This document shows, piece after piece, positions 16,366 through 62,850 of a stretch of 64,000 nt of DNA (positions within the stretch are counted from its first letter, which is position 1; each line of letters begins with the position of its first letter). Made by a program: the position numbers and the translations under genes. The DNA comes from Thermoplasmatales archaeon. Its GTDB lineage: Archaea; Thermoplasmatota; Thermoplasmata; Thermoplasmatales; Thermoplasmataceae. The notes below the pieces were generated by a model. That model was not told the origin of the DNA. It ran no database searches and worked only from the letters and a program-made list of their open reading frames with translations. The stretch is taken from the NCBI GenBank assembly GCA_016806715.1, contig CP060531.1, positions 1,535,966 through 1,599,965 of the forward strand, written 5' to 3'.

Positions 16366-16438
16366 GGGTCTGTGGGGTAGCCTGGTATCCTTCCAGCTTC
16401 GGGAGTTGGAAACTCCGGTCCAAATCCGGACAGACCCA
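16366..16438 (+). tRNA. tRNA-Pro(CGG), probable integration site
   Basis: GGGTCTG pairs with CAGACCC as acceptor stem, the D arm is GGGGTAGCCTGGTATCC, the anticodon stem-loop is CCAGC-TTCGGGA-GTTGG (anticodon CGG), and the T arm is TCCGG-TCCAAAT-CCGGA with discriminator A. The T loop has C where nearly all tRNAs have U/pseudouridine at position 55. No intron. A tyrosine recombinase gene starts 61 bases downstream, so this tRNA is the likely attachment site, and its 3' part may have been supplied by the element. Confidence 0.87.
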
Positions 16439-16439
16439 C

Positions 16440-16499
16440 TTATATATATGTGCCGTAAAATAGACCCACATTTAAATAGTTCTTATACATGATCTACTC
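16440..16499 (+). promoter_or_regulatory. Integrase promoter with repeated AGACCCAC box
   Basis: ATTTAAATAG at about 16470-16479 lies 25-30 bases before the integrase ATG, right for a leaderless archaeal transcript. A second TATA-like run (TTATATATAT) begins at 16440. The box AGACCCAC occurs at the tRNA 3' end (16432-16439) and again at 16462-16469, touching the TATA box; an inverted copy follows the integrase gene at 17873-17880. These could be recombinase-binding arm sites or an autoregulatory operator. Confidence 0.5.
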
Positions 16500-25604: not shown

Positions 25605-25787
25605 ATGAAGTGTCCGATATGCGGCGGGGAGAATTCTAACAGTTTTTTTAAATCATGGCAATATGGACTCTATACTGTTCAAAGAACACAATGCTCTGAA
25701 TGCGGAGAGAAGTTTAATATATACAGAGGAGAAAATAAAACATTCACTGTTCCAAAAGCTACAGATGGTGATCTCTCTGGAAAATGA
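25605..25787 (+). CDS. Small zinc-ribbon protein at the head of the restriction-modification operon
   Basis: Sixty residues, MKCPICGGEN at the start and TQCSECGEKF in the centre, so two CxxC pairs forming one zinc ribbon, similar in layout to the N-terminal ribbon of NrdR-type regulators. It overlaps the methyltransferase start (25765) by 23 bases in another frame, which implies coupled translation. It may be a controller protein for the operon, by position only. Confidence 0.6.
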   Translation: MKCPICGGENSNSFFKSWQYGLYTVQRTQCSECGEKFNIYRGENKTFTVPKATDGDLSGK

Positions 25788-28700: not shown

Positions 28701-28818
28701 CGACGATTTGCCACTGGATCAATTCTACAACGAATTTGTTGGTCTGGTTGGTGACAGGATACTGAAAGCTGGTCGGTCGCTTAAACCCAAGGAAGATGTA
28801 GATGAGCAGAATAATTGA
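25765..28818 (+). CDS. Large N6-adenine DNA methyltransferase of a restriction-modification/defence operon
   Basis: About 1017 residues. DPAVGSGGFLLG near residue 390 is the SAM-binding motif I and MNPPYVRQE near 556 the catalytic motif IV of N6-adenine methylases; between them lies LFGFDIEGEAIEIARLRLWL, typical of the large Eco57I/PglX-like class. The N-terminal 300 residues form an accessory domain and the C-terminal 350 residues would read the target sequence. It overlaps the following nuclease-helicase gene by 17 bases. Together they should protect self DNA and attack unmodified DNA. Start: ATG 25765 (MVISLEN); upstream codons lie in the zinc-ribbon gene. Confidence 0.85.
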   Translation: MVISLENENFGKAFWYERLTELGYPVKETEIPVNFLRERKAIPPGTNLKRGLLYYSDPLTFDLILLEFDKLPPRTAASRISRYWKSHQQGRQLIIFEDGHDSYAIVIPGAYEEGTSKARILGLSDTIYHTDAEALNSLRFVSDKKAMREAYDNHFLPYEKVREEFFLEYRNMYQEIYGITKDILGPNASSYSQRFLGRLMFLYFLQKKGWLKGDKKFVNTIKDYGELNWTFYEALSKEGNNGFPYLDGTLFEREEYFSQSIEKSLLDSMNNAFYKAREFLNKYNFTVDELSPNDLEVSVDPAMIGTIFENMLPENERGSKGTFYTPLEEISFICRRALSNYLGIPERVIIVDGKQKLEDGVENLIRSFEEKKNEKEVLELRRKLLDIRILDPAVGSGGFLLGMMHEIVGILKRIDESAGWEPRVDHYKDKILQNLFGFDIEGEAIEIARLRLWLSMIVDKKDPEVLRSLDMNLVTIGDSLVKPQGVQAKLGDESLDIFDRMSFIRGNFINATSFSERAKLRKELANIQDELEKKTGIKGGMIESWLPEKADIIIMNPPYVRQESIPAEKKKYYTSTYKIDRKSDLYAYFILRAVQLIRSDGIVSTICSDKWLETDYGLDIQKWISTRLIAVYGQRERTFGADINSIIFVYGNKTDSFASTDFTYLETYPSRLIRNHTQFKRVEMKPGKWFYLRAPRLFMEKIYPKLTHKLGDFADIKFGIKTGANEFFYMRDVSLQYGTDYLANPKKFEDWGVSARNEKELKEQSLIYIENEGGERFVIDISDAKPLVRTTKDLRGYKIDKVERLCLYTKTPGVMTQKYIEWGRNQSASIRGQKDPVIGYNNRPSVSGRKKWYSLNDLEPANIILPMYVMDRFFIPSSDEPVICDHTLYTIKSNTKGIVAYLNSTIFYITMELYLRRLGGGVGEIMVDDYEQMPVPDLRKLNLTSINVSLNRDVKRYFEEVRADDRKDLDSELMNLLGIDDLPLDQFYNEFVGLVGDRILKAGRSLKPKEDVDEQNN

Positions 28819-31800: not shown

Positions 31801-31831
31801 GCGTGTTTGCTGGTGTCTGCTAACAAGTTGA
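28802..31831 (+). CDS. PLD-nuclease/SNF2-helicase fusion, probable restriction subunit
   Basis: A 1009-residue protein. Residues 1-160 form a phospholipase-D-type nuclease domain with H108-x-K110 (FHGKAYIG) and GSSNLT at 130-135. From about 215 an SNF2-family helicase follows: ADSTGLGKT (240-248), VDEAH (about 318), ATATPVNN, and in the second lobe STDVLSEGQNLQNA and QRVGRIDRMG. A single PLD motif set implies dimerisation for cleavage. With the adjacent methylase this is a two-component ATP-dependent restriction system; helicase plus PLD plus methylase also recalls parts of DISARM, but DrmA/DrmB are not seen here. Confidence 0.85.
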   Translation: MSRIIDNGKDKLSESLNLELKDVSELAFASAYFNIKGFGLIKDTIRDKPLKFLLGRPQDESVTFEEEIVRELEEQEDNPEYYTLMNDTVTYFSDDKREIRKKNGPFFHGKAYIGVSPNLSNPKTGIGIVGSSNLTYAGLKTNSELNVENTDRELLKEITIWFNEKWQSAEEYKSTFIGFLKNYTITHTPYEVASKALFEYYNKDLQEAEKIKMMGLKRFQVVSVLEARKILSEYKGVVIADSTGLGKTRTMIALAHEARKERKKVLLIAPKSVLRTTWEKETDALDTKIEGINSEYISANPDEFVEKYENKGNNFIMVDEAHYFKSSSSNRYKALRDLILHNSAEVVLATATPVNNSLMDLYNLIALFAPEESIMDIAGVTLKGYFGSNQKLLLEGKSFEMSQVLERFVVRHSRKFAKMLEKDMKGFPERVIDMNPKNRYKSNMDYQTLDDKLERLYFAPYELSVEKLTELKLPSGQAISQFKEREKKEKLKELVKTIVRLNLFKRLESSQEAFRETMGAISSYMKRAMEFARTSGYFLPRSAADDPLFDFDEEIPPNIFESDKYRELQDKCLLTKEEKEYFLKACSEDLKSIKEILNSIPSTDAKLIGFQERVRELIPQIKEPNGVVFFTQYTATAKLLYNSLNGLYPLTYLTSGSICKDHKGRISDTTKIVEQFQEHGGLLISTDVLSEGQNLQNAQFVVNYDFPWNPVVLIQRVGRIDRMGSNYDYVYLINIMQENDNPEDPNSLQHFINLMRKLYSKISGIKNTVGIDAPILGEDAEPKDFGTMQKLIAEGKSTVLTELEKEIEQFTNDPKDQLMEIIDDLGEERIKAIPRGIGAYKKYEKNGLFCLFTDGENYYWRLKFEGESNVITDPGQIVGILLKDKEKDSSGEKIEYKVLVDKLRKLKEETTHSVESDRVRRSSSSTLPNLSKNGKEIYAKISEEDEELALKFRAVASKEALVKSLYEAMKDPNFIEKARKLILSQSEKSEPETRKELSLKRVCWCLLTS

Positions 31832-45933: not shown

Positions 45934-46329
45934 TTAAAGTTTGAAAACAAATTCCACATGGCCATAACCTTTCGTATAGGGTTTGATTTCTTCCTTGTCA
46001 GATTCTGTGAAACCGAAATTAAGGTAATGTTCCCCTGCCGTTATGAGTTCATGCCCCTGAGACTGTGCAACCATTCCCATCTTTATGGGATCATAACCCT
46101 CAGTCATCATTACCCAACTCTCCCATGTCTTACGGAAAGAACGGACACAGACACCATTGGTCTTTGGATATATGTATTTTTCATGATATACCTTTACTGT
46201 TTTACCGTTCTTTACTTCTGTCAGTTGGGTTCCATTCTCATCCTTCACAGGGTGTTTTACTACCTTCTGTAATCCAGGATTGAGAGCAAGTCCGATCATC
46301 TCCCCTGCGACGTGAAGTATCTGGCTCAA
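45934..46329 (-). pseudogene. C-terminal fragment of an archaeal tyrosine recombinase
   Basis: 131 residues. CVRSFRKTWESWVMMTEGYD supplies the second catalytic arginine, QSQGHELITAGEHYLNFGFT the His and the Tyr, and the tail KEEIKPYTKGY is family-like. The N-terminal binding domain and first arginine are missing and no upstream sequence supplies them. It is a relic of an earlier integration event, unrelated in sequence to the full integrase at 16500. Confidence 0.7.
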
Positions 46330-50392: not shown

Positions 50393-51709
50393 TCACCCCC
50401 GGTCGTCCCGGATATCGGAATTATCGGGCTTGGGTTGTGAACCTTTTTTTTCTAGTCGCGGATCTGTCGCGGGTCTCTCAGAATCACCCGAGACAACTTT
50501 TTTATTAGCATTTCCTAGAGTTGAACTCTCATCTGTCGTGGAGACCCTCTTCCCTTCCTCATGTTCATGTTTTCCGTAAAAATTTTTGTCTGCGAAAGAA
50601 GATCCGCGACTGATTGTGTCTGGGTTAATCTCTGACTGGCCTTTTTGCTGTCGTGGGCCATTTTCGAGATCCGAGACAGTTTCCGCGACAGGCATCCATG
50701 TGACATTGAGCAGATCGCACCAGGCCTTGGTTCTTGAACCGCTTGTACCTATTCTTTTGTCAACTGTCGGGTTCGAGTATCCCAGAGTGTTAAGTGCCTT
50801 TCCTATGCTTGCCGCATTAATGTTCTTTATAGGGAACCCCTTTTCAGTTGCCCATTTTACGGCAGCAGTAATAACTTCCTGTTTGGGTGTTGTCAGGTAT
50901 TCATCAAAACTACCCTTGTAGCTGCCGGTAATGTACCTCTCTGGATCTCTGCCCGTGATTTCGATAATAACCCTGGCGTCTTCGATATCTGTAATTATTA
51001 TTTCATTATCATTAAGCAACCTTAGGTAAGCCAGGGCAGGGTTTGATCTCTTCTCCCATTCTTTCTTTGCCTCGTTCAAGTTCAACTGGCCGGTGAACTT
51101 CATGCGTGTTGTTAAAGGCCCGTAGTAGTTGTCTATTACATAAGAAAATATCCTGTCAAGTTCCTCCTTGTCCTCTAATTTTTCTACTACTTTCTTTATC
51201 TGTTCTGGGATCATTACATCCTCCAGGACATTCGGGAAATCTATAATGTCAATAACCCTCCTGTAAAACGCCCGCAGTTCGTTTTCCTTATCCGGCAGTT
51301 CATTCGTATCAATTATCTGCTTGGCATGGCTTGCAAATTTGAAGGGATGTCCGTTTTTCCTGTCAACCGTGATCGTAGTACCATCCGTTACACGTTTAAA
51401 CCATTCAGAGCTTAGAATTTGAAAACTACTTTCAGATATGAGGTTTGCCCAGGAACCGTACAGTTCAGCACGCTTGAATTTATCTTCCTCAAGTTCCTCA
51501 AGTGTGATAGAGGAAGTACGAACCAGGAGGTTTTCCACTACCTTGTGAATGATACTTTTGCCTTCTCCTCCCCGTCCGTACATCACAACCGTACCTTGAA
51601 TGCTATAATTCTTCATGAGTGTCCAGGCTATGGTTTCGAATATCTGGGTTTTTTTAAGATCTGCTTTCGGATCACCCTGAAGCATGGTATCCAGGAACCC
51701 AATAAGCAC
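50393..51709 (-). CDS. D5-like (P4/SF3-type) helicase, primase domain missing
   Basis: A 438-residue protein. VVMYGRGGEGKSIIHKV is the Walker A of D5/P4-type replicative helicases; LISESSFQ, DRKNGHPFKF and IIDTNELPD follow as in that family, and a C-terminal winged-helix-like region and low-complexity tail close it. Viral and plasmid homologues usually carry an N-terminal primase (AEP) domain, absent here. The start is GTG 51709; a palindromic TATA box GGGTATATACCC (51726-51737) is about 22 bases upstream, so the short form looks like a real transcription unit. It should unwind the element's DNA for replication. Confidence 0.72.
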   Translation of the reverse strand: MLIGFLDTMLQGDPKADLKKTQIFETIAWTLMKNYSIQGTVVMYGRGGEGKSIIHKVVENLLVRTSSITLEELEEDKFKRAELYGSWANLISESSFQILSSEWFKRVTDGTTITVDRKNGHPFKFASHAKQIIDTNELPDKENELRAFYRRVIDIIDFPNVLEDVMIPEQIKKVVEKLEDKEELDRIFSYVIDNYYGPLTTRMKFTGQLNLNEAKKEWEKRSNPALAYLRLLNDNEIIITDIEDARVIIEITGRDPERYITGSYKGSFDEYLTTPKQEVITAAVKWATEKGFPIKNINAASIGKALNTLGYSNPTVDKRIGTSGSRTKAWCDLLNVTWMPVAETVSDLENGPRQQKGQSEINPDTISRGSSFADKNFYGKHEHEEGKRVSTTDESSTLGNANKKVVSGDSERPATDPRLEKKGSQPKPDNSDIRDDRG

Positions 51710-53022: not shown

Positions 53023-53145
53023 AAAACGCAAAAAGGGCGACCCCGCACAAAGCGAAGCCGCCCTTAAAAAATCCCAAAATCCGTATCTCCATACATGCAA
53101 AAAGGGGAACCCCAAACCAGTATGGTTCAGAGTTCCCCTTTAAAT
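53023..53145 (-). terminator. Tandem hairpin-plus-T terminators closing the small-gene train
   Basis: Read on the minus strand: first stem AAAGGGGAAC/GTTCCCCTTT (53101-53110 with 53132-53141) followed by TTTTTGCATG, then stem AAGGGCG/CGCCCTT (53033-53039 with 53059-53065) followed by TTTTTGCGTTTT. A third similar hairpin lies at 60384-60415. Strong hairpins with T tracts at the end of a 10-kb transcript look like terminators or 3' end stabilisers, unusual for archaea, which mostly use T tracts alone. Confidence 0.7.
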
Positions 53146-53163: not shown

Positions 53164-53658
53164 TCAGGGTTTTCCCCTGTATTCTGCTTTTATGATCCCG
53201 GCTGTGGTCTCACAGTAACTTCCAAGCAAGGCCACTTCGTTATCTATGCCCTTTTCCCATGCTTCATAGCTTGCAGCCCAGTAACTCCCGATATTTTTTA
53301 GTATACTGGTATCCTTGGAGACAGCGTATATGGAAGTGTTTCTCCCGTCATTGAGATTCAGGACCAGGCAGTACATCTGCCGGCTTATTTCTCCGATGAC
53401 CTTTGTGCATTCTATCCTGTAAAAGACACGCTCATCAACCTCGTCGTCTTCTACCACACAGCTGTCCGCATCCGGCTCCTTTCCCGTAATCTCCTTGAGA
53501 TACGCCGCTGCCTCATCTGACGAGATAAACAATCCAGGGCATGACCATCTGGATGGGCCACATTCCTGCCTGAATATCGCATAGATGTCATGGTTTGCCG
53601 GTATGTGTCCTGTATTCTGTGTTTCAGCCGGTTCTTCTCCGCTTACAAAATATTCCAT
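53164..53658 (-). CDS. Hypothetical protein, last gene of the small-gene train
   Basis: A 164-residue acidic protein, MEYFVSGEEPAETQNTGHIP at the start. The middle (CVVEDDEVDERVFYRIECTK) is alpha/beta and the total looks soluble. The leader has the GCTC-GAAA-GAGC hairpin (53674-53685) and a purine-rich ribosome binding site. No family recognised. Confidence 0.6.
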   Translation of the reverse strand: MEYFVSGEEPAETQNTGHIPANHDIYAIFRQECGPSRWSCPGLFISSDEAAAYLKEITGKEPDADSCVVEDDEVDERVFYRIECTKVIGEISRQMYCLVLNLNDGRNTSIYAVSKDTSILKNIGSYWAASYEAWEKGIDNEVALLGSYCETTAGIIKAEYRGKP

Positions 53659-53698
53659 TCTCTCATTTTCCTGGCTCTTTCGAGCACGACATAAAAAA

Positions 53699-54172
53699 TT
53701 ATTTTTTAGATTTAAACAGTTTATGTTTTTTAGCAGGCGAGGTCTGAGTGCCTAGAACCTCTTCTCTCATGAGTTTTTCAGCCATATTTGAAGCTGCTCC
53801 TATTACAGTGTCCATCCTGTGGTAGAGTTCCCCTGCTTTGCTCAGTTCCTCCCGTGAATTGAAATCTGCCGTCAGCATAAATTCCAACTGCTCATTCGCA
53901 GTCTCCTTCATTTCCAGCAGGTAGGATTTCATCTTTGGTATCGGGCTCCAATCGATAAGGCTCGTGAACTCACCGTCTATGGCTTTCGATAGTTTTTCAT
54001 ATTTATATCGAATCCCATCCTCCAATTCCTCTCTCCTGTCCGGGTCTGTTACAGACCAGTCCTGTTTTATATCCTCATAAAGTTCAATGAGGTACCGTAC
54101 ATCCCAGTAAAGCCACTCATAGGTCTTTAGAGGTCTCCATCGAAGATTTCTAAAATTTCCTCTCAGTGCCAT
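53699..54172 (-). CDS. Hypothetical helical protein (157 residues)
   Basis: Starts MALRGNFRNLRWRPLKTYEW at 54172, after GAGGTGAAACGG; a GTG at 54181 is less likely because it would lie in the binding site. Mostly helical, with a basic C-terminus (AKKHKLFKSKK). The stop TAA runs straight into the TTTTTTATGTCG box. The junction upstream (to the 54192 gene) lacks the box, so these two genes are directly coupled. Confidence 0.6.
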   Translation of the reverse strand: MALRGNFRNLRWRPLKTYEWLYWDVRYLIELYEDIKQDWSVTDPDRREELEDGIRYKYEKLSKAIDGEFTSLIDWSPIPKMKSYLLEMKETANEQLEFMLTADFNSREELSKAGELYHRMDTVIGAASNMAEKLMREEVLGTQTSPAKKHKLFKSKK

Positions 54173-54191
54173 CCGTTTCACCTCTGCAAGA

Positions 54192-54581
54192 TCAGGCCAG
54201 AGATCTGTATCTCTCCTCGCTGATATCTCTCAGTTGCGGCATCTGGTCTCCGGGCGTTGCTTCATCTCTTTCGAAATATCTCTGTTCTCCGAAGATTCTT
54301 TTCCTGACGTACACCATTCCATTAGTTCCCAGGCTCTCGATCCCGAAGTCCTCGAAATCTTCATCAGTTCTTCCAAGAGAAGATGCAGGTGCATAATACC
54401 TGCCGTTCTCCCTGAACCTCAGTCTAAGCCTCGCATCCGCAGGAAGCCAGGCTGTCTGAATGGTTATCAGCAGCATCTCCATGGCATCCTTCACGGCGTA
54501 CTCCGGTGCGTTGTCATTGTTTGTTCCTCTCAGGATATCGTCCGACCCGAGCGTTGTTTCTACAATTTGGTACTTTCTCAT
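54192..54581 (-). CDS. Hypothetical protein (129 residues)
   Basis: A soluble protein MRKYQIVETTLGSDDILRGT with an Arg/Asp-rich C-terminal half (RYFERDEATPGDQMPQLRDI). Ribosome binding site GGAGAAAGGAG lies 8-17 bases before the ATG. Its leader has a duplicated box (TTTATGTCGTGCG and GCGTGCACAAAAAT). Unknown family. Confidence 0.58.
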   Translation of the reverse strand: MRKYQIVETTLGSDDILRGTNNDNAPEYAVKDAMEMLLITIQTAWLPADARLRLRFRENGRYYAPASSLGRTDEDFEDFGIESLGTNGMVYVRKRIFGEQRYFERDEATPGDQMPQLRDISEERYRSLA

Positions 54582-54649
54582 TGTCCACTCCTTTCTCCTC
54601 TATTTTTGTGCACGCAGGGTTTCATTGGTTCCCGTACGCACGACATAAA

Positions 54650-54832
54650 TTAACGGTTGGAACGGTAGACGTTCACGCCCATCATTACGCCTGGTTTGCC
54701 GGCAATTGGTTTGTTCCCCTCACTGGACGCAATTATTATGCTCTTCCCAGATGAGCTTGACCCAAACTCCTTGCTCAGGTCTACCGTTATGACCAGCCTG
54801 TCTCCTTTCACTTCTGTCTCTATGTTTTTCAT
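54650..54832 (-). CDS. Small virus/plasmid-type protein (60 residues)
   Basis: MKNIETEVKGDRLVITVDLS continues GKSIIIASSEGNKPIAGKPG and ends GVNVYRSNR. The strand pattern VxGDxLxIxVDLS...GKSxxIASxxG...GVxxGxNVYR recurs in small phage proteins of unknown function, so this is a mark of viral origin. The ATG at 54832 follows a GGAG site; the hairpin TGCC-GAAA-GGCA (54847-54858) lies just upstream. Confidence 0.65.
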   Translation of the reverse strand: MKNIETEVKGDRLVITVDLSKEFGSSSSGKSIIIASSEGNKPIAGKPGVMMGVNVYRSNR

Positions 54833-54867
54833 AGCTCCTTTTCTCCTGCCTTTCGGCAACATAAAAA

Positions 54868-55575
54868 TTAGTATTCGCAGGGCTCTAGGAGACCGGTGAG
54901 GTGTTTGTACGCCTCAGGGAGCATCCTCTCGATGTCAGCCTTGAGGTCCTTAATTGAATCCCCCATGAATCCTCCACAGGAGTCTATGTCCTCATCAGTA
55001 TCTGCATTGTATAACCTGAACTCGTAGACTTCTCCCCTGAGGTACAGATCGTAGGCATGGGCCTCTTCCCTCAGCTGATCCTTTGCTTTCTCCCTCACTT
55101 CTTCCGTGATCTCTGCCACTCCGAACTCTTTTTTTATACTATTTTCGGTAGCGTATATTATCCCCGTAATGTTCCAGTCCCAGCCGGCACCGTCCATCAT
55201 CCTGAACAGTCTGCTGCCGGTCGACATTGATATGCCGCTGTGGTCGTACAGATACAGCGGCAGCAAGGCTGTCTTCGTATGCATCAGAACTGCACGGAGC
55301 AGCACGCTGGAGTCAGCATAGTAGCTGATGTTTTCCCTCTGGGTCTCACTGAAATCAAATTTCTCGTCCAGTATATCCAGCAGGATTTCATCAACCTCAT
55401 GCTGTGTTCCAATCTGCCTGTCGCCAAGCAGGTACCTCGGATGCCAGCACACCATTTCTCCCATGTTATCCCACTCTCTGGGATCAACTGGGTCTATCTC
55501 CTGTGTAACCTCCAGCACCATGCCGTTCTCCTGGGCTTTATAGTCGGGCACTACCACCTGTTTTGTTATTATCAC
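54868..55575 (-). CDS. Virus-type protein of the 'DPREWDNMGEMVCWHPRYLLGD' family
   Basis: About 235 residues. The motif DPREWDNMGEMVCWHPRYLL and the later PLYLYDHSGISMSTGSRLF, GIIYATENSIKKEFGV are shared by a common phage protein family of unknown function. I place the start at GTG 55575, after GGAGAGAAAAAA; the longer frame to 55608 begins inside the TTTTTATGTCGTG box and its hairpin (55590-55601), which are repeated noncoding leader elements. Ends EPCEY with TAA in the next box. Confidence 0.75.
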   Translation of the reverse strand: MIITKQVVVPDYKAQENGMVLEVTQEIDPVDPREWDNMGEMVCWHPRYLLGDRQIGTQHEVDEILLDILDEKFDFSETQRENISYYADSSVLLRAVLMHTKTALLPLYLYDHSGISMSTGSRLFRMMDGAGWDWNITGIIYATENSIKKEFGVAEITEEVREKAKDQLREEAHAYDLYLRGEVYEFRLYNADTDEDIDSCGGFMGDSIKDLKADIERMLPEAYKHLTGLLEPCEY

Positions 55576-55613
55576 TTTTTTCTCTCCTCGCTCTTTCGAG
55601 CACGACATAAAAA

Positions 55614-55826
55614 TTAGAAAATTACCGTGCCATTAAATTTGACCAGTTTTGCCTCAATTCTATGGCTCGTTAAGAAGCTCAGGAAATCCTCAACGGTGAA
55701 ATCATCATCAGTATACTCTCTCCGTCCCATCCTGTACATTTCAAGCCATTCATTTACTGTTTCAACGTCTGGCAGGTCTATCTCTACCAGGAACACAGAC
55801 TCCGGGTTACTTTCCCGATAGTCCAC
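55614..55826 (-). CDS. Hypothetical protein (70 residues)
   Basis: Begins GTG (MDYRESNPESVFLVEIDLPD) and contains TDDDFTVEDFLSFLTSHRIE; acidic, alpha/beta. The leader carries the T box and a TCCCGG/CCGGGA hairpin (about 55849-55867), and a GGAG site about 14 bases before the GTG, rather far, so the start is uncertain. Confidence 0.5.
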   Translation of the reverse strand: MDYRESNPESVFLVEIDLPDVETVNEWLEMYRMGRREYTDDDFTVEDFLSFLTSHRIEAKLVKFNGTVIF

Positions 55827-55882
55827 TTTATAGTATGGCGTTCTCCTATCCCGGAATTCCCCCGGGAAGTCACGACAAAAAA

Positions 55883-56842
55883 TTATTGCTCCATTCTTGG
55901 AGCCAAGAGATATTTTACTTCCGTGCGGTGGTCTCTGCTCATCCTGTTTAAGGATTCCACAGAGAAATCTATGACCGCAGGATAGTCGCTCCTGAACTGG
56001 AATTTTATCTCATCCACTGTCTTCATTGCCATTGCGAGCTTCAGCAGGTAATCAAGAGGGTATGCTGCCCTGGTCTGCTCATTGCAGACAATCTCTTTCA
56101 GCATGTCCTTCGTAAATCTTGATTCACTTTCCTCACCGTCACTGAATGCAAGCATCTTGAGACCGTCTTTATTCAGCGTGAACCGTATCGCATCGGATAC
56201 GTGCTCGGCCGCTTTCAGTACATTCCTGAAAGTAGAGGCGTTCATTACAAAGCTGCTGTCGGTCATAATGACGGGTAAGTGCGGTACTGTTACGCTCTGT
56301 GAGTCAAGCAGTTCGTAATAGGTCTTGCTTGGTCCAACGGTCATAACCAGTCTGCTTTCCCCTCCCTCAAGCTCTATGATATCATCTTTAGAGCCCTGTG
56401 GAATGATCTTCTTCAACCGGTCAATATCGAGTGTCCATGTCGCCAGGTTTCCCTGAAGATAGTATTCAGAAAATGCCTCTCTCGGTATCCTGATTTCTAT
56501 CATACCCACATGGGCCGGGTCGATTGCCTTGGCCTCCATTCCTTCCGGCCCGAAGTTGAGCTTTACCTCATTCTTTACGGCATTCAGAAGACCAATTATC
56601 TCCTTGAACTCACCATACCTCAGTGCAATTCTCAACGGGGCGTCTCCGTTCTCCGGCTTCTTCTCCTCAGCTTTCGGAGCCCTTAGAGGTTCTCTGACCG
56701 GTTCGCTCTTCTTTTCCTCCTCTTTTGCGTGCGTCTCAACCTGTACTTCCATAACAGGCGTGTTCTTCTTTCCTACCAGCTCTCTCTTCTCTGGCTTAAG
56801 GTCAGTCAGAGATACAGTTTCCCAGTTTTCTTCGCTTTCCAT
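55883..56842 (-). CDS. PCNA-like sliding clamp 1, with N-terminal extension
   Basis: A 319-residue protein. From about residue 68 it is a clear PCNA: LRIALRYGEFKEIIGLLNAV, FGPEGMEAKAIDPAHVGMIE, a central linker and the C-terminal TEVKYLLAPRMEQ. PCNA trimers encircle DNA and tether polymerase, ligase and nucleases. The first 65 residues are an acidic/basic linker-like extension (EEEKKSEPVREPLRAPKAEE) unusual in cellular PCNAs. A second clamp is encoded 2.3 kb upstream at 59171. No DNA polymerase is present, so the clamps may redirect host enzymes. Leader has the GTCCC/GGGAC hairpin, shared with the end of the tiny zinc protein. Confidence 0.88.
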   Translation of the reverse strand: MESEENWETVSLTDLKPEKRELVGKKNTPVMEVQVETHAKEEEKKSEPVREPLRAPKAEEKKPENGDAPLRIALRYGEFKEIIGLLNAVKNEVKLNFGPEGMEAKAIDPAHVGMIEIRIPREAFSEYYLQGNLATWTLDIDRLKKIIPQGSKDDIIELEGGESRLVMTVGPSKTYYELLDSQSVTVPHLPVIMTDSSFVMNASTFRNVLKAAEHVSDAIRFTLNKDGLKMLAFSDGEESESRFTKDMLKEIVCNEQTRAAYPLDYLLKLAMAMKTVDEIKFQFRSDYPAVIDFSVESLNRMSRDHRTEVKYLLAPRMEQ

Positions 56843-56864
56843 TTTCTCTCACTCTCAGTCCCTT

Positions 56865-56972
56865 TCACAGGGACGCAACATAAAAATGACCACACTCAAG
56901 GCATGTGCTGCCCATTATGTTTCCATAAATCGTCGTTACGGAAACTTCGCATCCGCATTTCTCACATTTCAT
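56865..56972 (-). CDS. Tiny zinc-ribbon protein (35 residues)
   Basis: MKCEKCGCEVSVTTIYGNIM then TCLECGHF and a stop inside the leader hairpin of the clamp gene. Two CxxC pairs form one zinc site. It begins directly after a T box without a hairpin and ends 22 bases before the PCNA ATG, so the two are probably translated together. Confidence 0.6.
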   Translation of the reverse strand: MKCEKCGCEVSVTTIYGNIMGSTCLECGHFYVASL

Positions 56973-56984
56973 GGCGACAGAAAA

Positions 56985-57110
56985 TTAAGGCTCTACGCTA
57001 AGATATTCTCCATCTGGTTTAATTAAGGTTTTGTCCGAGAGTTCAAACGCCATGGTGTGGTGGTCATAAGTCACAGTCTGTGTGACCATATCAGTGTGTG
57101 TCCCTCCCAT
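56985..57110 (-). CDS. Small hypothetical protein (41 residues)
   Basis: MGGTHTDMVTQTVTYDHHTM continues AFELSDKTLIKPDG and ends YLSVEP. Its TAA runs into TTTTCTGTCGCC, a variant of the junction box, then the next ATG. No family. Confidence 0.45.
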   Translation of the reverse strand: MGGTHTDMVTQTVTYDHHTMAFELSDKTLIKPDGEYLSVEP

Positions 57111-57155
57111 ATACCTACTTTAACCACGGTATCAGGTTTAGCCTTTGCACGGCAT

Positions 57156-57278
57156 TCAGTTCTGTTTTTGCCGAACGCCACTTCTCGTTTTCGCTTCTCT
57201 CTCAAGAATTACCCCTATGCAGGGACCATCCGGTATATCCTCTGTATTTGCTCTCTCCTCCTTCTCCTTATAGGGCAC
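57156..57278 (-). CDS. Small hypothetical protein (40 residues), start uncertain
   Basis: Reading from GTG 57278, VPYKEKEERANTEDIPDGPC continues to SGVRQKQN and TGA. The GTG lies in the T box, before the GGAGGAGAGAG binding site, which is odd; a start after that site would be non-canonical. I list it because the frame fills the interval between two good genes. Confidence 0.35.
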   Translation of the reverse strand: MPYKEKEERANTEDIPDGPCIGVILEREAKTRSGVRQKQN

Positions 57279-57288
57279 GACATAAATA

Positions 57289-57507
57289 TTAAGATTTTTT
57301 AGGGTCCCTCGCACAGTATTCCCCCACATAAACGCCATCCAATTCCAAGACCATTGAACGGTCTCCTTTCCTGTTCCTGAAGTGATCAAGAACAAGGTGG
57401 TACCCAGATGGGCATCTCTCTTCCGGGAACCTGATATGAGGGTACGGACGTTTTCTCATCTCGTCCGTGATCTCATTTTCCTCTCTAAAAAGGCTGTATG
57501 GTTTCAT
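57289..57507 (-). CDS. Hypothetical protein (72 residues)
   Basis: MKPYSLFREENEITDEMRKR, then FPEERCPSGYHLVLDHFRNR and ends YCARDPKKS. GGAGAAATGGA precedes the ATG; the hairpin GCTC-GAGA-GAGC (57520-57531) and T box lie upstream. TAA then TATTTATGTCG follow at its end. Unknown function. Confidence 0.6.
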   Translation of the reverse strand: MKPYSLFREENEITDEMRKRPYPHIRFPEERCPSGYHLVLDHFRNRKGDRSMVLELDGVYVGEYCARDPKKS

Positions 57508-57545
57508 TCCATTTCTCCAGCTCTCTCGAGCGACATAAAAATTGA

Positions 57546-58036
57546 TTAAAAGAACTGTTCCGAGTAGGTCAGTAGATGCTGGCGCTTCTCTGAGCTCATG
57601 TCGAGATACTCAGTCCAGGGCGTTCCCCAGTCCTGGTATTCCATCCATGCCCTTTTAGGTCGGCCATCTGAGTCAAACTCACCTACTATTCTCACAGCAG
57701 GTCCGCCGGTGCATAGGAGGATCTCAAATTCCTCAGGTTCGAGTTTTTCGCCCGGGTTTGTCCATCCAGACCTAACCTGAACCTCAAGGGGATCCTCTTC
57801 TATTGCTGTTCTTACTGCATCTTCGTCGTGGTATTCTTCTCTCTCTTCATCGGTAACTTTGTCACCGGGAGTGTATGAATACCCAAGACCCTCACGGATC
57901 TCTTCGTCAGTGAGTTCGCAATCCTCTCCATCGCATTTCTGAGCATGTTCCAGTTTATCCACCATACTCACTATGTTCGCCAGCTGCGCAGCAGCCTGCG
58001 ACCTCGCTTGTTCGTCCTTTTCGGTTTTCATTTCCA
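57546..58036 (-). CDS. Hypothetical acidic protein (163 residues)
   Basis: Starts MEMKTEKDEQARSQAAAQLA at 58036 after GGTGAGAAA; the longer frame to 58094 would run through the leader hairpin GCCCC-GGAGA-GGGGC (58046-58060) and is rejected. Strongly acidic centre (DEEREEYHDEDAVRTAIEED). Soluble, no known motif. Confidence 0.6.
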
Positions 58037-58090
58037 TTTTCTCACCGCCCCTCTCCGGGGCGCAACAAAAATGTGTTGGGGTCAATTCCC

Positions 58091-58360
58091 TCAAAAATTA
58101 TTTCTTACCTCTTCGGCTACCCATTCTGTGACCGCTTCGTCAATGCAGTCATATGCGTCATCCATATGACGTGCATTGATCTCCAGTTTCCCAAGACTGG
58201 ATTTGAATATTGCGAACGAACCAAAACGGTAAACCGTAAGCTCATCGTTATGGTCAAGTGCGGCCAGCAGCTTCTTGTCTGCATAATACCGTGACTTAAC
58301 GATGTTCGGTACAGCCGATACAAATTCTTCGAATGGTATGTCCTCTCTTCCTGTTTCCAT
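58091..58360 (-). CDS. Hypothetical protein (89 residues)
   Basis: METGREDIPFEEFVSAVPNI starts at ATG 58360 (GTG 58369 is an alternative). Helical C-terminus (DDAYDCIDEAVTEWVAEEVR). Its leader has TCCC-GGAA-GGGA (58377-58388) after a TTTTTTGTAGCG box. Unknown function. Confidence 0.55.
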   Translation of the reverse strand: METGREDIPFEEFVSAVPNIVKSRYYADKKLLAALDHNDELTVYRFGSFAIFKSSLGKLEINARHMDDAYDCIDEAVTEWVAEEVRNNF

Positions 58361-58400
58361 TTTTTTCACTCTTCTATCCCTTCCGGGACGCTACAAAAAA

Positions 58401-58799
58401 TTAAAAAAATCCATTTCCGGGATCCATTATACGACCTTTCTCCACGTTTTTTATAGAACACGACAGGTTTCCGTTCAATTCCCAATCCTCTATAATCTCT
58501 CTCAGGCTAAACCAGCCCCTGTATTCTGGTAAGAACACAAATTCTTCTGGCTCGTCTGCAGAGATAATTTGAGACATCTCAGGATATTCATTGAATCTTG
58601 CCACCCTGTCTTTCATTCCAAGCCTGTTCGACCAGTAATCACTGTCGGCTATATGGTCATAATTTGGACCTGGCTTTACTGACAACCGATCATCAAAGAA
58701 GAAGTCAGGGTCTGTCTCCGGATGCATCGCTGGTATCTGGAATCTCCTCTGCACTTTCTTTATTTCGGTCTCCTCAAACCTATTTTCTTCCACGGTCAT
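58401..58799 (-). CDS. Hypothetical protein (132 residues)
   Basis: MTVEENRFEETEIKKVQRRF starts after GGTGATAAA. A Tyr/Trp/Pro-rich middle (DHIADSDYWSNRLGMKDRVA) and acidic stretch (ISADEPEEFVFLPEYRGWFS). The junction upstream (58800-58820) has the T box and ACGGTGATAAA but no hairpin, the same short leader as the 58821 gene. Confidence 0.58.
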   Translation of the reverse strand: MTVEENRFEETEIKKVQRRFQIPAMHPETDPDFFFDDRLSVKPGPNYDHIADSDYWSNRLGMKDRVARFNEYPEMSQIISADEPEEFVFLPEYRGWFSLREIIEDWELNGNLSCSIKNVEKGRIMDPGNGFF

Positions 58800-58820
58800 T
58801 TTATCACCGTAACATAAAAA

Positions 58821-59129
58821 TTAAAATTCAAATTTTGGGGTATTCGTGCTCATCATATAGCTACTGGCTGCCACATGCTCATTTGCGAGATGTTCTGCCC
58901 AATCATCCACAGGAATAATGATCCCACATTCGTCATCTTGCATATAGAGTCCATCAGGGACTCCCGTAAGTTCTACTCCTGTGTGTTCATTGTCGTCTCC
59001 CATGGTATCGTAGTTGTCCGGAATAAACGTCCGGATTTCCATCTCTTCTGCATCTTTTCGCTGTCCATCGCTATATGCCACTTTCCTTACATTTACCCCT
59101 GTGTCAAAATCAAACTCGGTGTCATCCAT
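58821..59129 (-). CDS. Hypothetical acidic protein (102 residues)
   Basis: MDDTEFDFDTGVNVRKVAYS; nearly a quarter Asp/Glu, no membrane segment. Leader GTTGCGGTGATAAAGAA without a hairpin. Ends PKFEF with TAA merged into the next T box. Such acidic small proteins in viruses can mimic DNA, but there is no evidence here. Confidence 0.55.
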   Translation of the reverse strand: MDDTEFDFDTGVNVRKVAYSDGQRKDAEEMEIRTFIPDNYDTMGDDNEHTGVELTGVPDGLYMQDDECGIIIPVDDWAEHLANEHVAASSYMMSTNTPKFEF

Positions 59130-59170
59130 TTCTTTATCACCGCAACAAAAAATTAAGAGATCAAAAATTT

Positions 59171-59977
59171 TTAATCCTTGACCAGAGGTGCTACTATATA
59201 GTAACCTTTTACCGGATATTCGTGCTGCTTGTTCTTTATTTGCAGCCTGATTCCCATCTTCAATGGGATATCCGTTTTGTATCTCAGTAGCAATTGGTCG
59301 TCCCTTACGAGCCTCAGCGTCTTCAGAAGCAGATCAGTGACATATCTGGCAGTCTGCCCTTCCGGGAATGAGTTTTTCTCTCCCAGCATGGTAATTACCT
59401 CTGTCTTCTGATCTCTCTTCCCTGATAGCTTCAGGATTATCTTCCCATTCTCGCTTACTGTTTGGAAGGTTATATCTTCTGCCCCCATGTCCTCAAGGTT
59501 CTGGATCGCCGTATAAAGCCACTTTCCGTTAAGTGTCATACCATACGGCATATCTAAGTCCGGGATGTAAACAGGCGTAGTGGAGCTGATCGTGCCTACA
59601 GTCTTCTTATGGGCATCACCAGTCTCGATCTCTATCTTCTCACCATTCTTGTTGAACTTCATCATCGCCCCAGATCCAAGCTCGTTTGTTACGCTCTTGA
59701 AATCCGCAGGGTCGACTGCAAAGGTCTGTTCCCCGTCATACTTGAATGAAGCCATGTCAGTCTTGTTTATGTAGAATATTCCTATCCTTGATCGTCTCTC
59801 GTCCATGCCGTAAAACCTTACGCCACTTCCGTTCACGTTTATCAAGACCTCATGTGTGTCCATAGCATACGGGAAGAACCTCATTATCTTCCTCATTGCC
59901 ATCTGTTCAACCTCAAAGGTTGCTTTTACTCCAGTCGCCATCTTCTCCATCTTCGGAACCATTTCCGTTTCCACCAT
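59171..59977 (-). CDS. PCNA-like sliding clamp 2, divergent
   Basis: A 268-residue protein with PCNA layout: two similar halves, central AVDPADFKSVTNELGSGAMM, and the last third LLLKTLRLVRDDQLLLRYKT, DIPLKMGIRL and GYYIVAPLVKD, corresponding to the final strands of PCNA. It is much more divergent than clamp 1 and lacks its long N-terminal extension. Two different clamps in one transcript suggest a heteromeric ring or separate roles. The start at ATG 59977 follows GGGAGAGAAAAGGAA; the longer frame to 60019 enters the leader. Confidence 0.78.
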   Translation of the reverse strand: MVETEMVPKMEKMATGVKATFEVEQMAMRKIMRFFPYAMDTHEVLINVNGSGVRFYGMDERRSRIGIFYINKTDMASFKYDGEQTFAVDPADFKSVTNELGSGAMMKFNKNGEKIEIETGDAHKKTVGTISSTTPVYIPDLDMPYGMTLNGKWLYTAIQNLEDMGAEDITFQTVSENGKIILKLSGKRDQKTEVITMLGEKNSFPEGQTARYVTDLLLKTLRLVRDDQLLLRYKTDIPLKMGIRLQIKNKQHEYPVKGYYIVAPLVKD

Positions 59978-60024
59978 TTCCTTTTCTCTCCCGACTTCTT
60001 CATTCAGAAGCCACAACATAAAAA

Positions 60025-60324
60025 TTAGAGAAAGACCCAGACGAGCTTATGCTTCTTTTCTGGCTTATCTCCATCCAGTGTATCAGGATAGGCCACGGTG
60101 GTTACCAGAACGGCACAGCCCTCATCATCCCTGTACACCAGCTTAGCGGAATCCACTACGCTGGCTTGTGTCACGAGTGCACGTGCGTGCCATTCTGTAC
60201 CCATCTTAGCTGTCCTAAGCTGGTTATAATAAATATCGTAGTTACCATCTGCGACGCAATACTTCGAATGCCCCTGCAAACGAATAGCTACTTTCTTTAT
60301 TTCAGTTATTTCTGTATTTACCAT
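60025..60324 (-). CDS. Hypothetical protein (99 residues)
   Basis: MVNTEITEIKKVAIRLQGHS, beta-rich (YRDDEGCAVLVTTVAYPDTL). Preceded by GGCAGGAGAAAAAGG, the GCTCT-GAGAA-AGGGC hairpin and a T box. The N-terminus (TEITEIKK) resembles that of the 58401 product (ETEIKKVQ), hinting at a shared N-terminal segment. Unknown function. Confidence 0.58.
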   Translation of the reverse strand: MVNTEITEIKKVAIRLQGHSKYCVADGNYDIYYNQLRTAKMGTEWHARALVTQASVVDSAKLVYRDDEGCAVLVTTVAYPDTLDGDKPEKKHKLVWVFL

Positions 60325-60383
60325 TCCTTTTTCTCCTGCCCTTTCTCAGAGCACAACATATTTTGGTATTTCCATAACGCAAA

Positions 60384-60415
60384 AAGGGCAGTCTCCCTTT
60401 CGGAAGGCTGCCCTT
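60384..60415 (-). terminator. Hairpin-plus-T element inside the train
   Basis: On the minus strand AAGGGCAG/CTGCCCTT (60408-60415 with 60384-60391) closes a branched loop containing CCGAAAGGG, followed by TTTTTGCG. Same design as the two terminators near 53.1 kb. It separates the structured, gene-poor region (60.4-61.2 kb) from the genes below and may be an attenuator or processing site. Confidence 0.6.
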
Positions 60416-60528
60416 CATGTATTGGAAAGACCATTCCTCACAGGGCTCCAGTTCGGTTTCCCTCTCTGGTCATACTCTGCAATTCCTGATCTCGATGGAA
60501 GATCAGTTATGCATCCATTGTGCATACA

Positions 60529-60684
60529 TCATACCCGTTCCGGTTCGGCGTTGAAACTCCATTGGTTCAACAGAGCCATCGCAGGTTCCCCAGTTGACCG
60601 AAGTCTTCTGGAGCCAATAAGACTGAGCTTTTTACGGCTCTGCCTCTTCTCCTCTGCCTCTTCTCCTCTGCCTCTTGGCGACAC
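60529..60684 (-). CDS. Possible small basic protein (51 residues)
   Basis: From GTG 60684: VSPRGRGEEAEEKRQSRKKL, then GEPAMALLNQWSFNAEPERV and TGA. The frame covers a 14-base tandem repeat and one CRATGGA hairpin. No clear ribosome binding site except in an upstream hairpin (GAGGGG/CCCCTC). May be fortuitous. Confidence 0.3.
   Translation of the reverse strand: MSPRGRGEEAEEKRQSRKKLSLIGSRRLRSTGEPAMALLNQWSFNAEPERV
60638..60677. repeat. 14-base tandem repeat, nearly three copies
   Basis: CTCTGCCTCTTCTC occurs at 60638-60651 and 60652-60665, and a partial copy (CTCTGCCTCTT) at 60666. A period of 14 is not a multiple of three, so it is not a simple codon repeat. Pyrimidine-rich on the plus strand. 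Confidence 0.75.
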
Positions 60685-60770
60685 GAGGGGCAGCTACTCC
60701 CCTCTTGCTGTTTATTTCAGCCTGTGGTCGCATGCACGTCCCTCGTGGTTACACACGATACGCTCACATC

Positions 60771-60899
60771 TCAGTAAGCCCACAGCGCAACATAATCAGG
60801 CATCAGGGAAAACTGCATCCATTGTGCAATCCTGCAAACCGATAGAACTCCCTGTATGTTTTCTGGCTGTCCATTGCAGCCATAAGCCATCCAGTTCAT
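60771..60899 (-). CDS. Possible small protein (42 residues)
   Basis: MNWMAYGCNGQPENIQGVLS continues VCRIAQWMQFSLMPDYVALWAY. A UUCG-capped hairpin (60910-60921) and a GGGGG purine run lie just upstream of the ATG, matching the general leader design. The frame overlaps two CRATGGA hairpins, so RNA structure is the competing explanation. Confidence 0.35.
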   Translation of the reverse strand: MNWMAYGCNGQPENIQGVLSVCRIAQWMQFSLMPDYVALWAY

Positions 60900-60981
60900 T
60901 CGTTTCCCCCTGCCGAAGCAGAGAGCATGCTAACCTATCCGAAGACAGGCTCCCTTGCGATCCATCAAGTTAATGGAACCT

Positions 60982-61113
60982 CTAGGCATTCGGGACATTC
61001 CGGTTGCCCCATCCGGTTCCGTAGTCATTGCCTTTTGGGCTGCGATACAATATCCGGAAAAAATATCGCCCTTCTACGGTTGCGTCGCTGTCAAAGTGGA
61101 GCTTTATACCCAT
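60982..61113 (-). CDS. Small hypothetical protein (43 residues)
   Basis: MGIKLHFDSDATVEGRYFFR continues ILYRSPKGNDYGTGWGNRNV and PNA. The composition is that of a real protein. The hairpin AACACT-GAAG-AGTGTT lies directly before the ATG. Likely a genuine small gene of the train. Confidence 0.5.
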   Translation of the reverse strand: MGIKLHFDSDATVEGRYFFRILYRSPKGNDYGTGWGNRNVPNA

Positions 61114-61198
61114 CGTAACACTCTTCAGTGTTTCCTCTCTCGTGTCTCACCTCACGGTTTCCCGTAAGTCCGTTGAGGGTTTTGCTCCTCGCTGCATT

Positions 61199-61271
61199 CC
61201 ATCCTCCCCTCATTTCTGAGGCGCTACACTTTTCCCTTAGTTATTACTTCTCCATCTGGGTATATAATATC
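61199..61271 (-). promoter_or_regulatory. Promoter P3 with tetraloop leader hairpin
   Basis: TATTATATACCCAGATGGAG (minus strand, from 61269 downward) gives a TATA box at about 61259-61270 followed by the conserved CCCAGATGGAGAAGTA. Initiation is expected near 61237. The leader then holds CCTCA-GAAA-TGAGG (61208-61221), GGGAGG and an ATG that opens a 16-codon frame (MECSEEQNPQRTYGKP). Confidence 0.65.
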
Positions 61272-61314
61272 TTTCTTTATCCCAGAGCCCATTTTTGGGG
61301 CTCCGCTACATAAA

Positions 61315-61647
61315 TTAATCAAAGAGGTGTTTTTCTATCCCTTCGGTATTTCTCCATTCATCGGAGACTACCTTTATCTTGATAGTTGATCCCCTTTTGG
61401 TTGTAATTAAAAGATTAGACGCTATAACGATTCTCTGCTCAAATGGATTTTTCAATCCACTGATCATGTAAAACGGACTCTTTTTTAATTCTTTCACCAT
61501 TTCTCTTGAGATGTTGAACATTACGTAATGTTTTTGCTTCAGTTGTAGCTCTTCCTCTTCGTCAAGAAAAGCCTCCACCTGCCATCCATTCACGGTTGCG
61601 TCTCTTTTCTCCATTTTTTTCTTGAAAATTACTCCTATTTTAATCAT
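61315..61647 (-). CDS. Hypothetical protein (110 residues)
   Basis: Starts MIKIGVIFKKKMEKRDATVN at 61647, after TAGGAGATATTAAA. The frame stays open upstream to an ATG lying in the CRATGGA loop at about 61785 (MDTGNFQGIF...), so a longer form with 46 more residues is possible; the T box/hairpin and binding site at 61650-61680 favour the short form. Strand-rich, unknown family. Confidence 0.6.
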   Translation of the reverse strand: MIKIGVIFKKKMEKRDATVNGWQVEAFLDEEEELQLKQKHYVMFNISREMVKELKKSPFYMISGLKNPFEQRIVIASNLLITTKRGSTIKIKVVSDEWRNTEGIEKHLFD

Positions 61648-62038
61648 TTTAATATCTCCTACCCTATTTCTTTGGGCGTAACATTCTGTTCGTATCAGTT
61701 TCTTATCCTTCCTTGCGGTCATCGTATAAGTTACCAATACAGGGCACTCTCTTGCGAAAATACCCTGAAAGTTGCCTGTATCCATCGTGCAGTCAGGTCT
61801 CCTTCGCACAGATTAGTAGTTCTCAGTCATCCATTGTGACCTTGATAGTCTCACCTGTGTTCCAGAGATTGTCATTAAAGACACCACACTCCCTTGCGGA
61901 AGTGACTTCCACTCTTTCGAGCTACTGCGGACTTAATGAATAACGGTATTCAAAAAACTTCCAACGTCCCTGCCGGAACACTGGGGATCATACCAACTCC
62001 TGCGTCTATACTGTTTTCTTCCGTCCACTACATAAAAA
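61648..62038 (-). ncRNA. Structured spacer with tetraloop hairpins and tiny frames
   Basis: Holds strong hairpins with GCAA loops: GGGTATTTTC-GCAA-GAGAGTGCCC (61742-61765, ten pairs with wobbles) and CACTTCC-GCAA-GGGAGTG (61888-61905), plus two CRATGGA hairpins. Small frames with binding sites include MIPSVPAGTLEVF and MTISGTQVRLSRSQWMTENY. It could be a regulatory leader RNA or a run of very small genes; I cannot decide. Confidence 0.4.
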
Positions 62039-62218
62039 TTAGAAATCATAAGGACCCTCTTCTACACGAATTGACGTTGGTTCGCTCCCTTCAGAACAAG
62101 AGTTTTCAACAGATTCGACATCGAAGTCGATTATCTTTACCCTTATTCCTTCCGGTATCTTTGTTACCGTAGCTACTCCACCACTCAACTCGATTACCAC
62201 TTCATCCTCTTTTCCCAT
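62039..62218 (-). CDS. Small virus-type protein (59 residues)
   Basis: MGKEDEVVIELSGGVATVTK then IPEGIRVKIIDFDVESVENS. The pattern VVIEVSGGVAxVxxxPxGVxVxIxDxD is that of small phage proteins of unknown function, again pointing to viral origin. ATG 62218 follows GGAGAGATAAAA; the longer frame to 62254 is in the leader. TAA merges into TTTTTATGTAG. Confidence 0.68.
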   Translation of the reverse strand: MGKEDEVVIELSGGVATVTKIPEGIRVKIIDFDVESVENSCSEGSEPTSIRVEEGPYDF

Positions 62219-62588
62219 TTTTATCTCTCCTTTTAGGGTTTTACAGTTCCCCAACTGGCTTTATCGCATCATTTTATGTTTCGACCCCCAAGAACCCATC
62301 CGCCTTTCGGCGTTATTAGAAGGTCGGTCTACCTATAAGGGTTGGATTGTTTTAGTCTTGATCTGGTAGTCCCTTTCGGGCACTGGTAGCCAAGCTCCCC
62401 CTATAAGCACTACTCTGTAGAGATCACAGGTAGATCATCAGGCGCATTCTTTTTACAAGGAGGTAAGGGAATCTTCCACCTCTATTGAGGTATCTCTGGT
62501 CATCCGTTACCCAGCGTAACTTAATCGCTACATATGGGGAGGGTTAATCCCCAAAACCCGTTTATTTCACTCTTCTACAAATATATCT
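62219..62588 (-). ncRNA. Long structured leader downstream of promoter P2
   Basis: About 350 bases between P2 and the first clear gene. It contains GTTAC-GCTGG-GTAAC, ACCTC/GAGGT, CCC-GAAA-GGG, CGCC-GAAA-GGCG (62301-62312) and CAGTT-GGGG-AACTG, and only tiny frames such as MTRDTSIEVEDSLTSL. A structured RNA (leader or stable ncRNA) is the simplest reading; very small genes are the alternative. Confidence 0.4.
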
Positions 62589-62612
62589 TTTCCATCTGGG
62601 TATATAAAGGTT
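62589..62612 (-). promoter_or_regulatory. Promoter P2
   Basis: On the minus strand AACCTTTATATACCCAGATG (from 62612 downward) then GAAAAG: a canonical TTTATATA box with AAACC as BRE-like element and the conserved CCCAGATGGA downstream. Initiation is expected near 62577. Confidence 0.7.
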
Positions 62613-62664
62613 TTGCTTATATGCTCCTCCCAGAGCCCTTCCTCGGGGGCTCCAGCGACAAAAA

Positions 62665-62808
62665 TTAACAGTAATCGATGGGATGGCCCTTGTGCCGGGC
62701 CTCAAAATCCATCAGTTCGCTAACCCTATATGTTCTTTTCTTCCTTCGCAGGTATTGCAGAAGGCAAATCTAAGGCGGGGTTTTACGACCCCTCTTGACT
62801 CAAGCATC
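62665..62808 (-). pseudogene. Small zinc-binding protein gene, apparently frameshifted
   Basis: From ATG 62808 a 31-codon frame reads MLESRGVVKPRLRFAFCNTC and stops. Another frame through the same interval gives RTYRVSELMDFEARHKGHPI and DYC, stop at 62665 (TAA into a TTTTTGTCGC box). Together CxxC...HKGH...C looks like a zinc finger interrupted by a frameshift near 62735. The second part may also start by itself at an ATG overlapping the first stop. Confidence 0.4.
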
Positions 62809-62850
62809 TGTAGCTTGAGCGGCTATTCTGATACCATATGTACTACTTCT

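Follow-up and report, generated by a model that had tools for sequence, protein, structure and literature searches.

Clamps additional to the cellular PCNA are known from several systems. The euryarchaeon Thermococcus kodakarensis has an extra PCNA, PCNA1 (TK0535) being accompanied by PCNA2 (TK0582), which forms a ring, stimulates PolB but not PolD, and for which lateral transfer has been proposed (PMC3984812). PCNA is also encoded on mobile elements, namely haloarchaeal tailed viruses (phiCh1, phiH, HHTV-1) and haloarchaeal plasmids, and a Haloplanus plasmid protein (307 amino acids as annotated) seems to be N-terminally extended, as is one of the clamps described here. Chlorovirus PBCV-1 is a virus with two PCNAs (PMC7019647). 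The crenarchaeal PCNA1-PCNA2-PCNA3 set and the eukaryotic 9-1-1 complex comprise several divergent clamp paralogues of the same fold. We analyzed a stretch of 64,000 nucleotides from a Thermoplasmatales archaeon (contig CP060531.1, positions 1,535,966 to 1,599,965; hereafter the window), whose minus strand carries a conserved module coding for two clamp-family proteins, a host-like PCNA with an N-terminal extension (clamp 1, or E1) and a very divergent clamp (clamp 2, or E2). The closest relative of the pair is found in another genome, G078. The main features are as follows.

55883..56842, minus strand: clamp 1, a 319-residue PCNA with an N-terminal extension, identified by Pfam, the PDB, its G078 homologue, and a tree
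56648..56842, minus strand: N-terminal extension of clamp 1 (codons 1-65), characterized by alignment and a codon test
59171..59977, minus strand: clamp 2, a 268-residue divergent clamp, identified by PCNA homology, predicted fold, and relatives in other genomes
53164..62254, minus strand: the conserved module, mostly small genes with both clamps inside, its gene order partly shared with G078

The reading frame of clamp 1 is uninterrupted, and the forward strand over both clamp genes is rich in stop codons. The product exceeds the curated Pfam thresholds for both PCNA domains (PCNA_N, 1.1e-8, 35.3 bits against a cut-off of 20.3; PCNA_C, 5e-5, 23.9 bits against a cut-off of 23) and matches archaeal PCNA structures in the PDB at 8e-22. 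As this match begins at residue 77, an extension of some 65 residues is left over, in agreement with the initial annotation, which had read the gene as a PCNA extended by that length. Alignment with the host PCNA and a Thermococcus PCNA (whose 11 N-terminal residues lie outside the pocket positions) showed that the pocket for the PCNA-interacting peptide (PIP) box is intact in clamp 1, with its DPAHV loop, LLD linker, and C-terminal LAP; the C terminus itself, LLAPRMEQ, is identical in clamp 1 and the host protein. Basic residues are present in the helices lining the PCNA hole in both clamps. Since its pocket is kept, clamp 1 could probably be loaded by the host replication factor C (RFC) and bind host partners.

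Residues 1 to 39 of the extension contain a conserved block, W.T..LT......E..GKK.TP.MEV.VE, the remainder being a charged, variable linker. The block is 50% identical between genomes across 34 codons, a conservation equal to that of the clamp core. The codon test gave a nonsynonymous rate (dN) of 0.43 and a synonymous rate (dS) of 1.19, with identities of 0.62, 0.71, and 0.53 at the three codon positions. In the block, as in both clamp genes, mismatches are concentrated at third positions, a pattern that fits purifying selection; the extension is therefore very probably translated and constrained. The initial annotation had suggested that it may carry a recruitment motif. The conserved block fits that suggestion, but it contains no PIP box.

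The frame of clamp 2 is also uninterrupted, with 282 codons at 59171-60019, or 268 from 59977, the position that aligns with the start of the G078 homologue. The protein falls below the Pfam cut-offs for the PCNA domains, with a Rad1 match at 0.014; this and a match to a phage late-transcription coactivator are both sub-threshold and were not used to assign a function. The nearest PDB sequence, TK0582, is not significant (E 0.096). Homology to PCNA was detected by two other routes: clamp 2 matches cellular PCNAs in genomes of the order at up to 3.5e-10, and it is detected at 2e-15 (search space, 100,000 sequences) by a PCNA profile from which the clamp 2 family was excluded. An AlphaFold model computed from four aligned sequences (predicted local distance difference test [pLDDT] 81.6, predicted template modeling score [pTM] 0.80) retrieved only PCNAs and other clamps in the first 50 Foldseek rows (best 6e-16), and its best PDB matches are PCNAs only. 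Aligned to A. fulgidus PCNA with VIA-align, the model gave a Z of 25.5 and a root mean square deviation of 2.6 Å over 235 residues. An earlier AlphaFold run, on two sequences and no clamp 1 cores, was too poor to use (pLDDT 43.5); even that model retrieved clamps with Foldseek. By its homology and its predicted two-domain fold, clamp 2 is a clamp, and the proposal that this gene codes for a divergent PCNA-like protein is borne out, a missing clamp fold, which would have spoken against it, having been checked for and not observed. Its pocket has diverged: in the alignment the canonical PIP-box pocket is absent, with DERRS/DQYKT where clamp 1 has DPAHV and TIS/TVY in place of the LLD linker. The linker proline is retained, AP (window) or SP (G078) stands near the C terminus, and the first helix is basic (RKIM[RK]FF).

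In this genome, which consists of one contig of 1.96 Mb, the cellular PCNA gene lies at C1:1737864-1738610, about 145 kb from the element clamps; its product is 39% identical to clamp 1. The cell thus has three clamp-family genes. Among 117 genomes of the order, the closest relatives of both clamps occur in one, G078 (Thermoplasmata archaeon LSA5.bin55; also the only genome returned by one genome-contig scan, as JAJZJR010000001.1). There, clamp 1 (C41:231309-232232) is 51% identical, extension included, and clamp 2 (C41:236109-236921) is 59-61% identical, in the same order and on the same strand as in the window, and with the spacing of 4-5 kb conserved. An element in a third genome, G098, has an extended clamp 1 of 349 residues (28% identity) and, about 6 kb away, a 265-residue protein that matches G078 clamp 2 with 29% identity over 128 residues (4.9e-4). 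This protein is probably a clamp 2, which would give one element a divergent pair. The pair is thus not an accident of a single genome, being present in G078 and probably in G098. A short contig of a fourth genome, G051, carries clamp 1 with the same 246-residue neighbor as in the window. Among 400 genomes of the class, that of the window and G078 were the only ones with a full-length match to clamp 2, and the weaker rows that were checked are cellular PCNAs; clear E2 homologues occur only in genomes that also carry E1. Neither clamp had a match in a collection of viral contigs, and clamp 2 had none in phages and plasmids.

The initial annotation had advised a phylogeny with viral and cellular PCNAs. 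In the resulting 36-row tree, the E1 proteins of the window, G078, G098, and G051 cluster together (94/94), with the host PCNAs of the same family as their sister group (84/83), and stand apart from the halovirus and haloplasmid clamps, and the E2 clamps form a deep branch of their own (91/86). A lone extra PCNA at L069:9913-10671 (G025:C4), next to HU-like and integrase-like reading frames, falls on a different branch and is apparently a separate clamp capture by a mobile element.

The initial view of a mobile element without a polymerase in the window is supported to the extent that the module looks mobile or foreign and that we saw no DNA polymerase gene within this stretch or next to it. 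PolB is encoded twice in this genome, at C1:642085 and C1:662180, in neither case near the module, and there is no PolB among the family matches of the sister elements. The sister loci contain integrases, a MoxR ATPase, a von Willebrand factor A (vWA)-like protein, DUF1643, restriction-modification genes, a DnaQ-like exonuclease, and many unknown genes. Genes for a capsid, a portal, or a terminase did not appear among the PHROGs and Pfam matches of the 68 genes of the G078 and G098 loci, where the element ends are not fixed. In G098 the integrase overlaps a tRNA-Asp gene, and a second copy of the attachment (att) site was not found there. For the window module, the integrase evidence amounts to a fragment (45934-46329); no att pair was convincing, and the ends of this copy were not found.

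We consider it an even chance that the module belongs to an integrated mobile element of Thermoplasmata, whether virus-derived or plasmid-like, that uses two clamp-family proteins and takes its polymerase and clamp loader from the host. Clamp 1 would be a cellular PCNA captured early in this archaeal family, loaded by host RFC, and able to bind host polymerases, FEN1, and ligase. Established PCNA biology makes the host polymerase, RFC, and ligase its likely partners, since no PolB is near and its pocket is kept, and recruitment of host polymerase or repair enzymes through clamp 1, as put forward earlier, is plausible from its sequence. The N-terminal block would tether an element protein or clamp 2, and clamp 2 would cooperate with clamp 1, whether inside a mixed ring or by forming a second ring that serves other clients; the element DNA would thereby gain its own set of partners. 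A more specific version is doubtful: a heteromeric ring of a host-derived, PIP-binding clamp 1 with a recruiting tail and a pocket-altered clamp 2, loaded by host RFC, would mark element DNA and alter the partners of host polymerase and repair enzymes. To our knowledge, such a ring would be the first in a euryarchaeal mobile element.

Most genes of the module are preceded by the sequence TTTTT(A/T)TGT[TCA][GA][CT], usually followed by a short hairpin with a GNRA-like loop and then a Shine-Dalgarno sequence. On the coding strand, the window, G078, and G098 modules contain 11, 14, and 17 such sites, respectively, those in the window spanning 53697-62038; outside the modules, the three loci together have none on the coding strand and one on the other. 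A hairpin follows 33 of these 42 sites, against about 7 expected from shuffles. As the stems vary and their pairing is kept, the sequences suggest that the signal acts in RNA, possibly in its processing or translation. The 12-base form ATTTTTWTGTYG occurs seven times in the whole genome, five of them here (chance in the window, 0.09), and the TTTTTTGTYGC form reaches its top counts in G098 and G078 among the 117 genomes. The module also has four promoter-like copies (62873, 62614, 61274, 57032). The initial annotation had placed both clamps on one transcript. The genes are co-oriented, but the promoter-like copies and the signal before most genes do not sustain that view; so few copies fit long transcripts with a per-gene RNA signal, and the two clamps may lie on one transcript or on two. 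At the upstream end of the module lies a candidate structured RNA, preceded by one of the promoter-like copies.

60012..60024, minus strand: gene-start signal before clamp 2, TTTTTATGTTGT, with a hairpin and GGGAGAG
56874..56886, minus strand: gene-start signal before clamp 1, TTTTTATGTTGC, with the hairpin GTCCCT-GTGAA-AGGGAC
62038, 59152, 58820, 58400, 57541, 55882, 55613, 54867, and 53697, minus strand: further gene-start sites in the window
57009..57032, minus strand: promoter-like sequence about 190 nucleotides upstream of clamp 1, AAAACCTTAATTAAACCAGATGGA, with 4 mismatches to the 62614 copy
62591..62614, minus strand: TATA-type promoter-like sequence, AAAACCTTTATATACCCAGATGGA, near-identical in G078 and a further genome, G079
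62270..62580, minus strand: candidate structured RNA at the upstream end of the module (start inferred; covarying helices at about 62282-62512)

With the promoter-like sequence included, this candidate RNA lies at 62270-62614 (minus strand) in the window and has counterparts at G078:C41 239228-239568 and G079:C17 35187-35526. Over the three sequences, 97.5% of cells are paired across 67 pairs, and 11 pairs show two-sided compensatory changes, a number reached by none of 500 shuffles and compared with 0-1 in slid controls. Rfam gave no match over threshold across the candidate at E<=1. The G079 locus also has the G078-type DUF1643 (87%) and exonuclease (89%) genes, and its contig stops before any clamp. 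Separately, 62665-62841 (minus strand) and its G078 and G079 counterparts hold a reading frame of about 58 codons whose product has a CxxC motif and two histidines (YCNTCKGTKKSYSITDLMDFEAKHQGHSIDYRV in G078); the window copy may be interrupted or frameshifted. A 48-bp stretch at 53097-53144, 90% identical to G078, overlaps sub-threshold Rfam matches (L20 leader, E 0.1).

Several points weigh against a host-dependent two-clamp element. The structure prediction covered single chains only, and two of the four input rows of the clamp 2 model were clamp 1 cores, a possible bias toward the PCNA fold; we therefore keep the sequence homology of clamp 2 as an independent line. The G098 candidate for clamp 2 otherwise has weak PCNA matches and is missed by the PCNA profile, and the tree has long branches that make the placement of E2 unsure. 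No PIP box was found in the module proteins of the window. The MoxR-vWA genes of the relatives are missing from the window module, the only MoxR-like reading frame being a distant one at C1:185854, and insertion sequence (IS) genes flank the module on one side, so that the module may be decaying.

How the clamps would work together can be read in different ways. In a sharper form of the favored explanation, which we rate as possible but rather unlikely, clamps 1 and 2, perhaps with the host PCNA, would be obliged to share one mixed ring, in the manner of crenarchaeal PCNA1-2-3 or eukaryotic 9-1-1, in which clamp 2 is the subunit that does not bind PIP boxes. The two co-occur in every relative with enough sequence, the pocket loop is lost in clamp 2 and kept in clamp 1, and the low-confidence first model of clamp 2 ranked 9-1-1 and crenarchaeal heterotrimer chains at the top; however, well-studied euryarchaeal PCNAs are homotrimers, and the two genes are not adjacent. 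Two independent rings, with clamp 1 in replication and clamp 2 in another process, for instance repair or the restart of replication, would parallel PCNA1 and PCNA2 of T. kodakarensis, where PCNA2 is a dispensable second homotrimer (PMC3984812). The conserved codon patterns of both genes agree with such a division, which is nonetheless unlikely in our estimation, clamp 2 being very divergent with a changed PIP pocket loop, unlike PCNA2.

Two other roles can be envisaged for clamp 2. If it, or the tail of clamp 1, were a decoy that interferes with the host PCNA and slows host replication to the benefit of the element, its changed pocket, its basic first helix, and its occurrence only alongside clamp 1 would make sense; a simple decoy would need neither the full two-domain fold nor a constrained gene, and we regard this role as improbable. 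Slightly more remote is a transcription or DNA-tracking cofactor serving the expression program of the element, much as gp45 of phage T4 does at late promoters. The module does carry a promoter-like sequence of its own and a gene-start signal that recurs across the element, but this signal, with GNRA-like hairpins before the Shine-Dalgarno sequence, looks RNA-level, no coactivator gene was recognized, and nothing links it directly to either clamp.

The surroundings of the module include the following additional features.

54868..55608, minus strand: 246-residue module gene (likely start 55575), a relative of PHROG 6186 of large tailed phages
57546..58094, minus strand: 182-residue module gene with homologues in G078 (66%) and G098
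50393..51709, minus strand: truncated remnant of a DUF5906/D5-like primase-helicase, outside the conserved module

The initial annotation had counted the D5-like helicase as part of the system. We dropped it: the frame covers only the C-terminal region (PHROG positions 335-600 of 1064) of a DUF5906 primase-helicase, plus-strand genes intervene, it has no gene-start signal, and the sister loci hold no match. Elsewhere in the window, a tRNA-Pro gene is followed by an integrase gene (16366-17849). Some 70 kb further along (C1:1621737-1622873) is a second integrase, homologous to the first, next to which 12 bp of the tRNA end (CGGACAGACCCA) are repeated; it is possible that the two integrases mark the ends of a larger composite island. 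In G078, a separate 11.5-kb integrated element neighbors the module (C41 206371-217866; integrase 216480-217796) and has a 22-bp repeat of the 3′ end of tRNA-Pro at its borders. In the window, two genes, each about 1000 codons long (25786-31825), correspond to a pair of the G098 element (216745-222799), with identities of 67% and 66%. The matches of the G098 set that contains this pair include an Eco57I-type methylase and helicase and phospholipase D (PLD) domains; the pair is therefore probably a restriction or defense system.

An element-borne PCNA, an extra euryarchaeal PCNA, and a two-PCNA virus with its own replisome were already known. In our literature coverage, which is incomplete, we found no description of a host-like extended clamp conserved together with a very divergent second clamp and without polymerase or loader. 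If confirmed, such a module would imply that an element redirects the host replisome through the clamp alone, and it would provide a natural system for clamp partner switching, one copy having the cellular pocket and the other a changed one. The gene-start signal and the structured RNA point to an expression program of the module's own.

The known systems differ from this locus in distinct ways. T. kodakarensis has a single extra clamp, near-cellular and devoid of a long extension, whereas two are found here, one of them very divergent, in a conserved module. The halovirus and haloplasmid PCNAs occur as one clamp per stretch examined (a second PCNA place exists in OP630575 and in Haloplanus GX21, outside those stretches), occupy a separate branch of the tree, and have no clamp 2 relative. 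PBCV-1 is a eukaryotic virus that brings its own PolB, RFC, ligase, and primase. The crenarchaeal PCNA1-PCNA2-PCNA3 and 9-1-1 clamps are cellular gene products whose hetero-assembly has been demonstrated, whereas the clamps of the window, for one of which the common fold is predicted, are known as a pair by their co-occurrence.

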